Of a DNA stretch of 33,255 nucleotides, positions 333-4,381 are shown piece after piece. The position numbers were made by a program, and so were the translations under genes. Source of the DNA: Candidatus Nitrosocosmicus sp. (GTDB lineage Archaea; Thermoproteota; Nitrososphaeria; Nitrososphaerales; Nitrososphaeraceae); contig JAICXY010000033.1 in NCBI GenBank assembly GCA_025934495.1, positions 1-33,255 on the forward strand. The letters run 5' to 3'. The notes under the pieces were generated by a model. The model made no database searches, had not been told where the DNA came from, and saw only the letters and a program-made list of their open reading frames with translations. Positions within the stretch are counted from its first letter, which is position 1; each line of letters opens with the position of its first letter.

Positions 333-1312
333 TTATTCACAAATAGTTGCATGAATTACATCTTCACTATCTACTATATATTTTAATTTTAATTTAGAAA
401 CAGCTTTGCACAATCTGAATACTGTTTCCAGGGCTCTTTTTGATTCAAAATTTGGATTGGATTTATTTAAATTAGTATAGTATTCTTGTAGCATTCTTGC
501 AGCTTCTGGACTTGGAATTGGTTTTATTTTTCTTGCATATTCTATGTATTTTTGAAGGAAAATATCATAATTTGGAATATAATTGGTTTGCAATTCTGTC
601 TTTCTTTCAGCATATTCTTTTAGTGAATGAATATTTCTATTATCTTTTAAAATAACTATTAAATCAAATCTATCTAAAAGTTGTCTTTGAAGCGGCAGAT
701 GATAGCTGAATCTTATCATCGATATCAAAATAACTATCAAAAGTACTTGAACTTGTTAAATTTGTAGATGCCATAATTGTGGTGGGTGCTTGGATTTTAG
801 AATTAAATCCATGTTTGTTGATGGTAAATTCACCCTCCTCCATTACATCTAATAGATGATTCTGTTCATCTTGTAGCATTGTTCCTATTTCATTTAGTCC
901 ACAAATACTTCCCTTTGAAATAGGGATAGGTCCCAACCTTAGAAAGTATTGTTCCTCTTCTTCTAATACTATTGCAGTTAAACTTTTTGCAGTGGAATGC
1001 TGTACACTTTCATATCTACTATTTTTTATTAAAGATATAGCTTTTTTTAAAAGAACTTTTTCCCAAACCAGGATTTCCAGCTAAAAGAACATTAATCCTG
1101 TTAATTTCATTTTCTTCTGCAGTTATATAATCGCATATTATATTTGCATTTTCAATATTGTATTTAACAAGTTCTTTTAAAATGGAATTAAAATAGGTCT
1201 TTGTACAAGTTTGAGTTATAGAATCAATTTTTCTATTTATCAATTCATACTCTGTTTTTATTGTTTTGTTATTTCCTTGCAGTTGATTGTTGCAGTCTTG
1301 CTTTTCTGCCAA
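333..1312 (-). pseudogene. MCM-like replicative helicase relic, two frameshifts
   Basis: Three consecutive minus-strand frames rebuild one MCM-type AAA+ core. The first (1312-1019) holds a Walker A motif, AGNPGLGKSS. The second (from about 1042 to 700) continues with the Walker B region GSICGLNEIG, an EEGEFTINKHG segment typical of MCM, and the sensor-1 region ASTN. The third (about 698-333) carries the arginine-finger motif LLDRFDLI and the C-terminal lid. The first shift lies in an A7 run (T7 on the plus strand, 1042-1048); removing one base restores frame. The second is a 7-nt excess near 699-705. Even when joined it is short (about 325 residues): the MCM N-terminal OB/zinc domain is missing, because the frame begins only about 80 residues before Walker A. 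The usual Walker B Asp is Asn. It ends about 70 nt from a tRNA-Ser gene. Likely a decayed accessory MCM, possibly from an integrated element. The motifs are seen directly; the origin is inferred. Confidence 0.8.
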
Positions 1313-1606: not shown

Positions 1607-1861
1607 ATGCCAACTGCCTATGTATTATTAAACTGTGATTTGGGTTCTGAAACCGAGATAATAAAAAAAATCAAACAAGTACCTGAAGTAATAGAAGTGA
1701 GCGGAGTATTCGGTGTTTATGATATTATTGTGAGGGTTTCATCCGATGATATGGATAAATTAAGAGAAATTATTACTTGGAATATTAGAAAAATAGATAA
1801 GGTTCGATCTACACTTACAATGATTGTAATCGAAGGACAGGGACAAGGACAGCTGAGTTAG
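1607..1861 (+). CDS. Stand-alone RAM-domain (Lrp/AsnC ligand-binding) protein
   Basis: The 84-residue product begins MPTAYVLLNCDLGSE and matches the AsnC-type ligand-binding (RAM/ACT-like) fold: a first strand AYVLLNC, helix ETEIIKKIKQVPEV, the pair SGVFGVYDIIVRVSS with the family's G-x-Y/D-x-x-V pattern, a helix DKLREIITWNIRKI, and the closing strand STLTMIVIE. It has no helix-turn-helix, so it cannot bind DNA like a full Lrp. Single-domain proteins of this type are frequent in archaea and may sense amino acids or pair with full-length Lrp proteins. The C-terminus is a short Gly/Gln tail. It is transcribed alone, 143 nt from the divergent tRNA-Ser, and converges with the PLP enzyme 17 nt downstream. 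Confidence 0.85.
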   Translation: MPTAYVLLNCDLGSETEIIKKIKQVPEVIEVSGVFGVYDIIVRVSSDDMDKLREIITWNIRKIDKVRSTLTMIVIEGQGQGQLS

Positions 1862-1878: not shown

Positions 1879-3213
1879 TTATATTCTGGCCACTATTGCC
1901 TTTATTTCATTTGTTGTCTTTATAATTTCTTCCTCGGTATTATAAAAGTGGGGTGATGCTCTTACTATTTTTTTTAAACCTATTTCCCTTTCAGCCAATA
2001 TTATTCCCTTTTCCTGTAATTTTTCGACCAATATTTTTACTCTGTTGTTATTATTCTTTTTAAAGGAAAAACAAATCATAGACGAACGTAAATTTTCTTC
2101 AAAAGATTCATGAACGGTAATATCATTTATATTAATTATTTCTTCTCTAAAGATACCGGCAAGCTTTTTATTTTTCCTATAAATATTAGAAATCCCTATA
2201 CGAAGCAAATATCTTATTGACGATTCAAGGCCGGCTAAACCAGGATAATTTCTAAATGTAGCGTGATATTTTTCAGGATATTTATAAAATTTTAATTTTT
2301 CTCTACCGGGCTCCCCCTCTTCTCCTCGTCCTTCTTCACCATCATCTTTTCCATATTCCTTTCTTATTTTTGATAGCTTACCAACATTGTCGATATCTTT
2401 TTTTCCCCCCTCTAATTTTGCAGTTCCTGATCCAACAAATATTGGTTCAAGGTCATCCATTACTTTTTTATTTACATACAAAATTCCTATTCCTAAAGGT
2501 CCGCATATCCATTTGAATGCTGGAAAAGATAAAAAATCACATTTGATTTTTTTTACATCCACATCAATGGCACCCACACTTTGTGCACCATCTATTGAGA
2601 ATAATATTTTGTTGTTCTGATTTTTTATAATACTCCCCATTTTTTCAACAGGGGTAATTGAACCATCATTATACATAATATGACTTGTTGTTACAATTTT
2701 TGGAACCTTGGATTCTATTAAATCTTTAAAATCTTTTATAAAATTTTCTTTATGATCGGGAAAGTTATCTACAATCAATTTATTATCATTGGCTGCTTTA
2801 ATCCAGGGTAAATAATTAGAATGGTGTTCATTTTTTGAATCTCTCAATAATATTCTATCATTTTTATTCCATGCTATTCCATTAGTGATAAAGTTGATTC
2901 CTTCAGTAGTACTTTGGGTAAAAATAATTTCATCATTATTACAGTTTATTAAATCAGCTACCCTTTTCCTTGTTTCTTCTTTTAGATTAACTAAATACTC
3001 ATTGAAATCTTTAGAGTCAGGACCTTGCTCGGAATACCTTAAATAAAAATCAGTAATAGATTTAATAGTTGATATCGGAACAGGACCGATTGATCCATTA
3101 TTTAAATAAATTTTTTTTTTTGTAATTAAAAAATCACCTTGTATACTATCATTTAATTCTGTATCCGAAATATTATGATTAGATGATGATGATTTTTCTT
3201 CCTTCTTTAGCAA
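1879..3213 (-). CDS. Class V aminotransferase-like PLP enzyme
   Basis: The 444-residue protein has the fold-type I class V layout: NNGSIGPVP near residues 38-46, EHHSN at 129-133 where the second His stacks on PLP, DGAQSVGAI at 208-216 with the PLP-pyridine Asp, and the Schiff-base Lys in FPAFKWICGP (K234). It resembles cysteine desulfurase, selenocysteine lyase and isopenicillin-N epimerase. However, the C-terminal loop where SufS/CsdB enzymes carry the catalytic Cys (RTGHHC-like) reads ILAEREIGLKKIVRAS and has no Cys, so desulfurase activity is unlikely. A charged Gly/Glu/Asp-rich insert at about residues 288-305 and a Ser run at 8-11 look like low-complexity expansions. The start is TTG at 3213 since no internal ATG precedes the fold. 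The substrate is unknown. Confidence 0.8.
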   Translation of the reverse strand: MLKKEEKSSSSNHNISDTELNDSIQGDFLITKKKIYLNNGSIGPVPISTIKSITDFYLRYSEQGPDSKDFNEYLVNLKEETRKRVADLINCNNDEIIFTQSTTEGINFITNGIAWNKNDRILLRDSKNEHHSNYLPWIKAANDNKLIVDNFPDHKENFIKDFKDLIESKVPKIVTTSHIMYNDGSITPVEKMGSIIKNQNNKILFSIDGAQSVGAIDVDVKKIKCDFLSFPAFKWICGPLGIGILYVNKKVMDDLEPIFVGSGTAKLEGGKKDIDNVGKLSKIRKEYGKDDGEEGRGEEGEPGREKLKFYKYPEKYHATFRNYPGLAGLESSIRYLLRIGISNIYRKNKKLAGIFREEIININDITVHESFEENLRSSMICFSFKKNNNNRVKILVEKLQEKGIILAEREIGLKKIVRASPHFYNTEEEIIKTTNEIKAIVARI

Positions 3214-3364
3214 TAAATAATAGATTAATTATTGATATTTAAGGTGTCTTAAATTCATACATAATTATCCTCATTCTCATACCTATTTCTCTGAATTTAT
3301 CTCAAATGGTATCAATTTAGCTTATTTTCATGATATTACTGGAAAAATTAACTTTTTATCTTCT

Positions 3365-4021
3365 TTGCTAATTAAATTTAAAAAGCAAAAAATTTTATAT
3401 ATGGATTTTGATACAATTTTTTCCTCATATATTCAAAATAATACATTAAAATATAATTTTAATGATTTTTCTGATCTCAAAATTGTTTTACCAACAATAG
3501 AAAATCTTAGTGTTGTATTTAAAGATGCAATAGACTCTTTATCATGTACTTCAATTTTAATACTCGATTCGTTAAACGGTCTTTTTGATTTGTTAAATAC
3601 GTTAAATATTTTGAAAAATAAGAATATACATAAAAACAATACAGCAGATGCAGCAGTAGTAGAAAATAAAAGATCCCCCATATACAAATCAGCAGGATAT
3701 CAAAGCCTAAATATTTTATTTTTATTATTGAAAAAAATAGAAATCGATGAGATACCAATAATAGTTACAATGTATCAACCAATCGAAAGGTCAAAGAATA
3801 TGATTTTTGAATTAATATCAAATACAGATTTCCAACCAAATCATTTCATCAGGATATCGAATTTGGTATTATTTTTAGAGTTTATTGAAAAGGATAATAA
3901 AACTGGATTTACTATAATTAAAAAAAATTTATCAAATTCTATAACTTTATCTTTTGATATAAACTCTTGTAATTTTTATCCTTATTCTAAATGGTATTAT
4001 TATAATTTTTTTAATCTTTAA
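3365..4021 (+). CDS. Degenerate RecA/KaiC-like ATPase (RadB-like), uncertain 5' end
   Basis: Translation from TTG at 3365 gives 218 residues, but RecA-type homology continues upstream in the same open frame to about 3299: GINLAYFHDITGKINFLSS precedes the TTG, followed by KKQKILYMDFDT. This matches the Walker A-beta2 region of RecA/KaiC/RadB proteins, with the P-loop decayed: where G-x4-G-K-T is expected the frame reads F-HDIT-GKI. A Walker B-like strand is intact (SILILDSLNGLF), as is the later strand IPIIVTMYQP. The in-frame stop is at 3233-3235, and no ATG, GTG or TTG lies between it and 3365. The gene may use a rare start, be truncated, or be a young pseudogene. Nucleotide hydrolysis is unlikely. 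It is divergent from the PLP enzyme and converges with a small membrane protein. RecA-superfamily membership is inferred from motif order. Confidence 0.6.
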   Translation: MLIKFKKQKILYMDFDTIFSSYIQNNTLKYNFNDFSDLKIVLPTIENLSVVFKDAIDSLSCTSILILDSLNGLFDLLNTLNILKNKNIHKNNTADAAVVENKRSPIYKSAGYQSLNILFLLLKKIEIDEIPIIVTMYQPIERSKNMIFELISNTDFQPNHFIRISNLVLFLEFIEKDNKTGFTIIKKNLSNSITLSFDINSCNFYPYSKWYYYNFFNL

Positions 4022-4048: not shown

Positions 4049-4381
4049 TTATCCTTCTTTTAATGAAACTAGGTAATACATAAAGTAAACTGATAATGAA
4101 AATATTATAAATCCGGATATTAAAAAAATATATTTTTCATTTCTTTTGTTAACGTCGTTTGCCTTATACATTACAACTATGCCTATAAAGCCAAATATTA
4201 GGATAAATATGCCTATGATAGTTTCATAGTTATTTTGAATGGATCGGGAAGGTAAAAATTGGGATACATTATATTTTTGACCTTCGATTAATGCATTAAT
4301 TAAGCCAGCAGTAAATGCAAAAAAAACAATAAGGTAAATGCTTGCCAGAATTAAGTTAATTTTTGAATATTTTAACTTCAA
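4049..4381 (-). CDS. Small three-helix membrane protein of unknown function
   Basis: The 110-residue protein has three clear hydrophobic segments, about residues 9-32, 54-75 and 84-106. Between the first and second is a polar loop (EGQKYNVSQFLPSRSIQNNYE), and a charged loop KANDVNKRNEKY lies between the second and third. I do not recognise a family. The start is TTG at 4381, just before the basic MKLKYSK segment, with a stop a few codons upstream. It converges with the RecA-like gene (27 nt apart) and diverges from thymidylate kinase (83 nt apart). Membrane location is supported by composition only. Confidence 0.6.
   Translation of the reverse strand: MKLKYSKINLILASIYLIVFFAFTAGLINALIEGQKYNVSQFLPSRSIQNNYETIIGIFILIFGFIGIVVMYKANDVNKRNEKYIFLISGFIIFSLSVYFMYYLVSLKEG

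Follow-up and report, generated by a model that had tools for sequence, protein, structure and literature searches.

The open frame considered here raises a question that its sequence poses at once: is a RecA-like gene without P-loop and start codon a conserved, non-catalytic paralog, or the remains of a gene? It lies in a stretch of 33,255 nucleotides from a Candidatus Nitrosocosmicus genome (contig JAICXY010000033.1; 'the window'), on whose forward strand 261 codons stay open from 3236 to a TAA at 4019-4021, a TGA at 3233-3235 closing the frame upstream. The original prediction described a RecA/KaiC-like ATPase with no ATG, GTG or TTG between the stop at 3233 and TTG 3365, a Walker A-like site with key residues replaced, and an intact Walker B-like strand. 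A frame scan bears out the first point, TTG 3365 (codon 44) being the earliest in-frame ATG, GTG or TTG, and both motif claims were confirmed. The former Walker A now reads FHDITGKI (residues 31-38; 3326-3349, forward strand), with the lysine and the glycine preceding it still present. The Walker B strand is SILILDS (3551-3571, forward strand), whose Asp and Ser do not vary among all 27 aligned orthologs, nor do both aspartates of a D-F-D motif (3404-3412, forward strand) that aligns with the DTE of RadA, the Glu of which is catalytic. Five columns of this alignment are invariant (D41, D43, P70, D95 and S96), and the old P-loop lysine and an asparagine in strand beta-1 are nearly so. Of the signatures of RecA ATPases, GxxxxGK[ST] is thus missing and the Walker B aspartate present.

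An AlphaFold model computed from 3284 on, with a 27-row alignment, consists of one domain of ~245 residues (pLDDT 82.7, pTM 0.82). A VIA comparison with RecA (2zrk) gave Z 15.4 and rmsd 3.0 over 187 residues, and the Foldseek matches with E no higher than 0.001 comprise 290 chains, with 9q2a_X at the top (E 8.2e-8) and RecA, RadA, a RAD51-paralog complex and KaiC among them, at moderate query-normalised TM-scores (0.43-0.53 in the 50 of 290 listed). The predicted fold is that of a RecA-type core, within the RecA superfamily; structure prediction, one of the checks originally proposed, returned RecA and not an unrelated fold. In sequence searches of Pfam, NCBIfam and PDB the window protein had no match. 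When four orthologs were tried, NCBIfam RadB (TIGR02237) matched two, L016 and L018 (E 1.2e-6 and 1.9e-6; 28.5 and 27.9 bits, against a cut-off of 172.4), the window protein and L006 not being among the matches. In hhalign comparisons the family reached 95% with the order's P-loop-bearing RadB-like paralog, against 52% with RadA. An N-terminal domain of the RadA/RAD51 kind is absent, the core in this genus starting 15-21 codons past a conserved AAGGTG motif to which we return below. KaiC has two RecA domains with P-loops, and the window protein is a single domain with no P-loop. The RecA part of 'RecA/KaiC-like' therefore stands, but KaiC-like is less apt than RadB-like in view of the TIGR02237 matches and the hhalign value of 95%, in a profile comparison that covered the RadB-like paralog and RadA. 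We read the protein as a RadB-type paralog and an old pseudo-ATPase.

The family is not confined to the window. With a single sequence as query, 28 of 61 genomes yielded relatives, and within Ca. Nitrosocosmicus the gene is present in 14 of 15 genomes, its own included, the one without it (G002) being 86% complete. With E of at most 0.001, a profile of the 27 orthologs had matches in 305 of 400 genomes from the class, and in 192 of the 220 high-quality ones; 305 is an upper count, since at least four weak matches (L080, L081, L084 and L088) are P-loop proteins. These four, assigned to RadB-like paralogs or another ATPase, were left out of the ortholog count, and in two genomes (G244 and G344) the sole match was of this kind. 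Orthologs are spread across the order. Among the matches listed, those outside it are three of family f22 (E ~4e-4), and the one examined of these, L084, is a P-loop protein of 440 aa. The gene is not universal, since no ortholog was found in five g9 and two g2 genomes of the same family, which are among the no-match genomes listed (75 are not itemised); loss of the ortholog is possible in these two genera. In G106 (family f9) the ortholog is broken by TAG and TAA (L071, L086), and this copy was dropped from the count. A contig search with the window protein alone gave no match, and one with the genus alignment gave five named loci, four from Ca. Nitrosocosmicus and one from a MAG labelled Nitrosopumilus.

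The P-loop is missing in every ortholog checked. The pattern [GA]xxxxGK[ST] occurs in 0 of 66 ortholog rows (64 distinct genes from 14 families, the genus included), a figure that is partly a matter of definition, since the four matches named above were set apart for carrying a P-loop. The 66 are extracted rows, a subset of the profile matches; G019 and G037 enter twice, and eight rows from family f10 are weak matches (E 2.5e-9 to 0.008). A simple Walker B pattern fits 64 of the 66, and common substitutes at the P-loop are FNNPYAK, AEDALAR and YYDINAK. The proposed check on whether orthologs too lack the P-loop was thus run, with absence in 66 of 66 rows. The paralogs have kept theirs, the RadB-like ones of the order in 16 of 16 cases (L253-L268) and the RadA-length ones of the class in 12 of 12 (extracted from 30 loci), and in G000 the P-loop-less gene coexists with L264, which is RadB-like and has a P-loop, and with two genes of RadA length. 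We infer that ATP hydrolysis is absent; ATP might still be bound through another loop, the lysine and acidic residues having remained.

The second half of the original prediction, a gene early in decay, draws on the lost P-loop and the missing start codon, and is contradicted by selection. The frame is open, and over its whole length each of the 16 pairs has a Ka/Ks (Nei-Gojobori) of 0.16-0.33, the pairs being formed among L006-L010 and among L001 and L003-L005, three of them involving the window gene; moreover, the P-loop is missing in all 14 families checked. A pseudogene in early decay is extremely improbable on these grounds, and the alternative of a non-catalytic RecA paralog gains support from the predicted RecA fold, the want of P-loops among the orthologs and Ka/Ks, non-hydrolysis itself being deduced from the lost motif. 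Such a paralog might, as the original prediction supposed, be a new regulatory component. Our preferred reading, which we put at roughly 0.6, is a conserved RecA-fold, RadB-type paralog, kept as a mediator or scaffold and decoded in Nitrosocosmicus by a non-standard route. Its P-loop would have disappeared no later than in the ancestor of this ammonia-oxidising archaeal order, and the protein would have been retained ever since. Without ATP hydrolysis it would depend on contacts with other proteins; its likeliest role is that of a mediator or scaffold using the RecA-type subunit interface to bind RadA or the RadB-like paralog.

A role in recombination is probable from kinship and fold. The Elongator subunits Elp4-6, which have a RecA fold without a working P-loop and act as a scaffold, suggest by analogy a scaffold outside recombination instead. 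Ortholog L026 has a weak match to the Pfam Elongator subunit Iki1 (Elp5), below the cut-off (E 0.0086; 16.1 bits against 22.5), and the recognised neighbours are not repair genes; RadB is nevertheless the better profile match, and we consider such a non-recombination role rather doubtful. In the 20 regions surveyed, no repair or recombination gene was recognised among the neighbours looked at. What recurs is a class V aminotransferase (cysteine-desulfurase-like), at 1879-3213 on the reverse strand of the window with a TTG start, which is the divergent neighbour in 12 of the 20 (L089-L092, L094, L097, L098, L100-L102, L107 and L108, from families f1, f2, f3 and f9). In L106 it adjoins on the same strand, no aminotransferase was found next to the gene in L093, L095, L096 and L103-L105, and in L099 the gene is hidden by the ORF filter behind an overlapping ORF. 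For the window's aminotransferase 25 NCBIfam families are listed, and its scores fall well short of their cut-offs. That our frame is non-coding antisense of this aminotransferase is ruled out by Ka/Ks and the confident predicted fold. A small protein that looks Lrp/AsnC-like by eye (1607-1861, forward strand in the window) often adjoins the aminotransferase, and a 110-aa membrane protein (4049-4381, reverse strand) has a relative close to the gene in 10 of the 20 regions; in several families it is convergent with the gene, and its matches are weak (e.g. OST3/OST6, E 0.012). Further off, an MCM/MoxR-like AAA+ ATPase (by eye; 333-936 and 1019-1312, reverse strand) appears to be spread over several frames and is possibly broken.

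If the gene is conserved and selected, how is it translated? The following counts concern the 13 genus genomes with the N-terminus on the contig (in L013 it falls off the contig). All 13 have the AAGGTG motif, and in 11 there is no canonical start in frame between the motif and beta-1. In the other two, L009 and L015, a TTG precedes beta-1 by four codons, and L003-L005 lack even a near-cognate codon in frame before it. Recurrence of the layout in 13 genomes rules out, for the genus, a sequencing error or a single bad assembly. Outside the genus a canonical start lies within 40 codons before beta-1 in 38 of 39 orthologs (the non-genus rows of the 66 minus the eight f10 rows, four of f9, L100, L101, L102 and L108, and two duplicates); in the exception, L069 (G041, family f6), the first canonical start is codon 108. 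The original prediction would have taken orthologs with an intact P-loop and an ATG start at this position as the mark of a pseudogene here; the P-loop is in none of the 66 rows, and an ATG, GTG or TTG start is in 38 of 39 outside the genus. The 'rare start' it proposed is no simple matter: the start is unusual, and no single near-cognate codon suits all genomes.

Where coding begins can be narrowed down. Stops in the main frame occur at the motif or directly after it in L006-L010 and L015, which obliges main-frame decoding to start past it there; and since L006-L010 carry an in-frame TGA at the motif itself, the frame upstream of it need not be coding. In the 13-16 codons before beta-1, Ka/Ks is 0.08-0.70 in 15 of 16 pairs, the remaining pair having no synonymous change there. 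Changes at codon positions 1, 2 and 3 of this stretch number 24, 4 and 26 (of 120 each) among L006-L010, 6, 6 and 16 (of 36) among L003-L005, and 73, 58 and 85 (of 120) among five deep lineages. This N-terminal part therefore behaves as main-frame coding sequence, and in the genus protein-level selection begins directly behind the AAGGTG motif, so that decoding probably begins at the motif. In the window the protein probably starts near 3251 rather than at 3236. We suppose that the Nitrosocosmicus protein is translated although a common in-frame start is missing, and that its decoding would begin at AAGGTG by a non-standard route.

A first possibility is a canonical start deeper in the frame, so that the protein would lack strand beta-1. 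TTG 3365 would serve in the window, and several other orthologs have an ATG or TTG soon after beta-1 begins. However, the placing of these codons varies a great deal from ortholog to ortholog, and the preceding stretch, with its near-invariant Asn in beta-1, is under protein-level selection, which makes an internal start unlikely. Gene finders that require ATG, GTG or TTG would shorten the gene.

A second possibility starts from AGGTG (3242-3246, forward strand), which by eye is complementary to the 16S rRNA 3' end of the genus genome G004 (TCACCTCC); that end, GGATCACCTCCTTAG, makes it a Shine-Dalgarno match. Together with the A that may follow it, AGGTG could pair with that end and select a non-canonical ATA, ATT or ATC initiator a few bases downstream. 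The fourth main-frame codon from the motif is indeed such a codon in 7 of 13 genomes (L006, L007, L008, L010, L012, L014 and L015), but it is TTA in L009 and L003-L005, GCG in L011 and TTC (then ATA) in L001. Since near-cognate codons are wholly absent before beta-1 in L003-L005, we regard this route as rather unlikely for the genus.

The third possibility is a leaderless mRNA on which initiation occurs at the GTG of the motif (3244-3246, forward strand). This candidate start lies one base out of the main frame and its own frame reads GTG TCT TAA, so that a +1 shift skipping the first base of the early stop would enter the main frame, much as bacterial RF2 is made by a +1 shift at an early stop codon. 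The GTG occurs in 13 of 13 genomes, and its distance to the Gly of beta-1, 46 nt in nine genomes, 55 in three and 64 in the window, is always 1 mod 3. In the GTG frame a stop follows at codon 3 in 11 of 13 (L001, L003-L011 and L014); in L012 it comes at codon 5, and in L015 at codon 8. A conserved start, an early stop and a +1 continuation, the layout expected for +1 frameshifting, are found in all 13, as a layout of sequence in which use of the start is hypothetical. The main-frame stops in L006-L010 and L015, which exclude earlier entry in that frame, and the lack of a near-cognate start in L003-L005 also favour it, as does a scan of 12 genus regions for T[TA]TTTAAGGTG, in which 10 of the 11 matches fall at this locus. 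A putative TATA-like TAAATAA (3214-3220, forward strand) stands 23 nt before GTG 3244, a spacing that by hand count is equal in L001, L006, L011, L012, L014 and L015 and one more in L003.

Several points weigh against this initiation. The shift point has no shared slippery codon; AT-rich coding DNA should often contain out-of-frame stops, and the lineages are related by descent. The motif overlaps what may be the TATA element of the divergent aminotransferase, CCTTAAATA (3236-3244, reverse strand), and by eye the start of that gene overlaps or abuts the first TATA-like box. A promoter profile of 258 upstream regions had no clear TATA peak and no general leaderless signal, and inspection by eye of orthologs from other genera did not reveal the AAGGTG layout. 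Initiation at GTG 3244 with a +1 shift is thus possible but well short of probable. That the pseudo-ATPase RadB paralog is made genus-wide only in this way, by a programmed, RF2-like +1 frameshift from a leaderless GTG at a stop 2-7 codons later, we offer as a tentative conjecture. As a separate matter, AAGGTG as a general promoter element (BRE) is unsupported, the bases before other genes' TATA-like boxes being mostly A-rich; CACC occurs 10 times among 84, and these occurrences are attributed, without being itemised, to this locus in the genus genomes.

A control for missing starts places the anomaly in context. The regions examined in 12 genus genomes contain 331 conserved non-shadow ORFs, and 17 of these have no canonical start before the conserved part. 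Eight of the 17 are copies of the present gene (12 copies in those regions), four (three thioredoxins and an epimerase, by eye) have an ATG slightly downstream, and among the five others a kinase-like gene recurs, its four copies being a pair in G006 and single ones in G008 and G009, and the other four being found in one genome each. The anomaly is therefore rare but not unique to our gene. The kinase-like gene, so named by eye (L218, L219, L233 and L220), has no canonical start in its first 34 codons, before the conserved part; a short TTG ORF closed by TAA lies out of frame at that point, and here too the main frame is +1. A looser count, in which 104 of 1239 pairs were flagged in both partners, was set aside, since antisense shadow ORFs inflate it.

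The near genus-wide lack of a start codon in a gene under selection is a clean case of non-standard initiation or frameshifting, few of which are known in archaea. The available text of PMC7531240 names AUG, GUG and UUG as archaeal start codons, and that of a 2021 review (PMC8211752) gives one demonstrated -1 frameshift in an archaeal chromosome, with other genes possible, and mentions +1 frameshifting in archaea only for a haloarchaeal virus. By that part of the review (PMC8211752), the +1 shift would, if true, be the first chromosomal one in archaea, and a recombination mediator would be tunable through termination or ribosome state. The closest precedent, fucA1 of Saccharolobus solfataricus, is likewise a chromosomal archaeal gene for which recoding was proposed, but its shift is -1 at an A-AAA-AAT heptamer, in contrast to the +1 proposed here. 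In literature on the family, archaeal starts and recoding we found nothing recognisable as this family, which leaves its absence from print unproved.

Among recombinases, the protein shares with RadB (TIGR02237) a RecA core without N-terminal domain, but RadB has a Walker A that the P-loop-less family lacks, and the ~28 bits stand far from the cut-off of 172.4. In the available text of PMC5480776, a mediator role of RadB is shown genetically in Haloferax and RadB is described as a mediator confined to Euryarchaeota, and that of PMC5797428 reports a RadB homolog for one thermophilic thaumarchaeon. The order's own RadB-like paralog (L253-L268) is the closest relative by profile and resides in the same genomes, with its Walker A kept in 16 of 16. 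With RadA/RAD51 the family shares the RecA fold and the Walker B Asp, its DxD standing at the position of the RadA DTE; unlike the family, RadA-length proteins have the P-loop (12 of 12) and ~95 or more residues before the core. This suggests that ammonia-oxidising archaea keep an extra P-loop-less RecA-fold protein beside RadA and an ATP-binding RadB-like protein.

Pseudo-ATPase RecA paralogs are also kept in eukaryotes, where the Shu subunits Csm2-Psy3 serve as a scaffold. What Csm2-Psy3 and Elp4-6 have in common with the archaeal family is the RecA fold without a working P-loop; no sequence link between them is shown, and the losses were probably independent. The P-loop-less RadB relative described here may thus parallel, in archaea, the pseudo-ATPase recombinase paralogs of eukaryotes.
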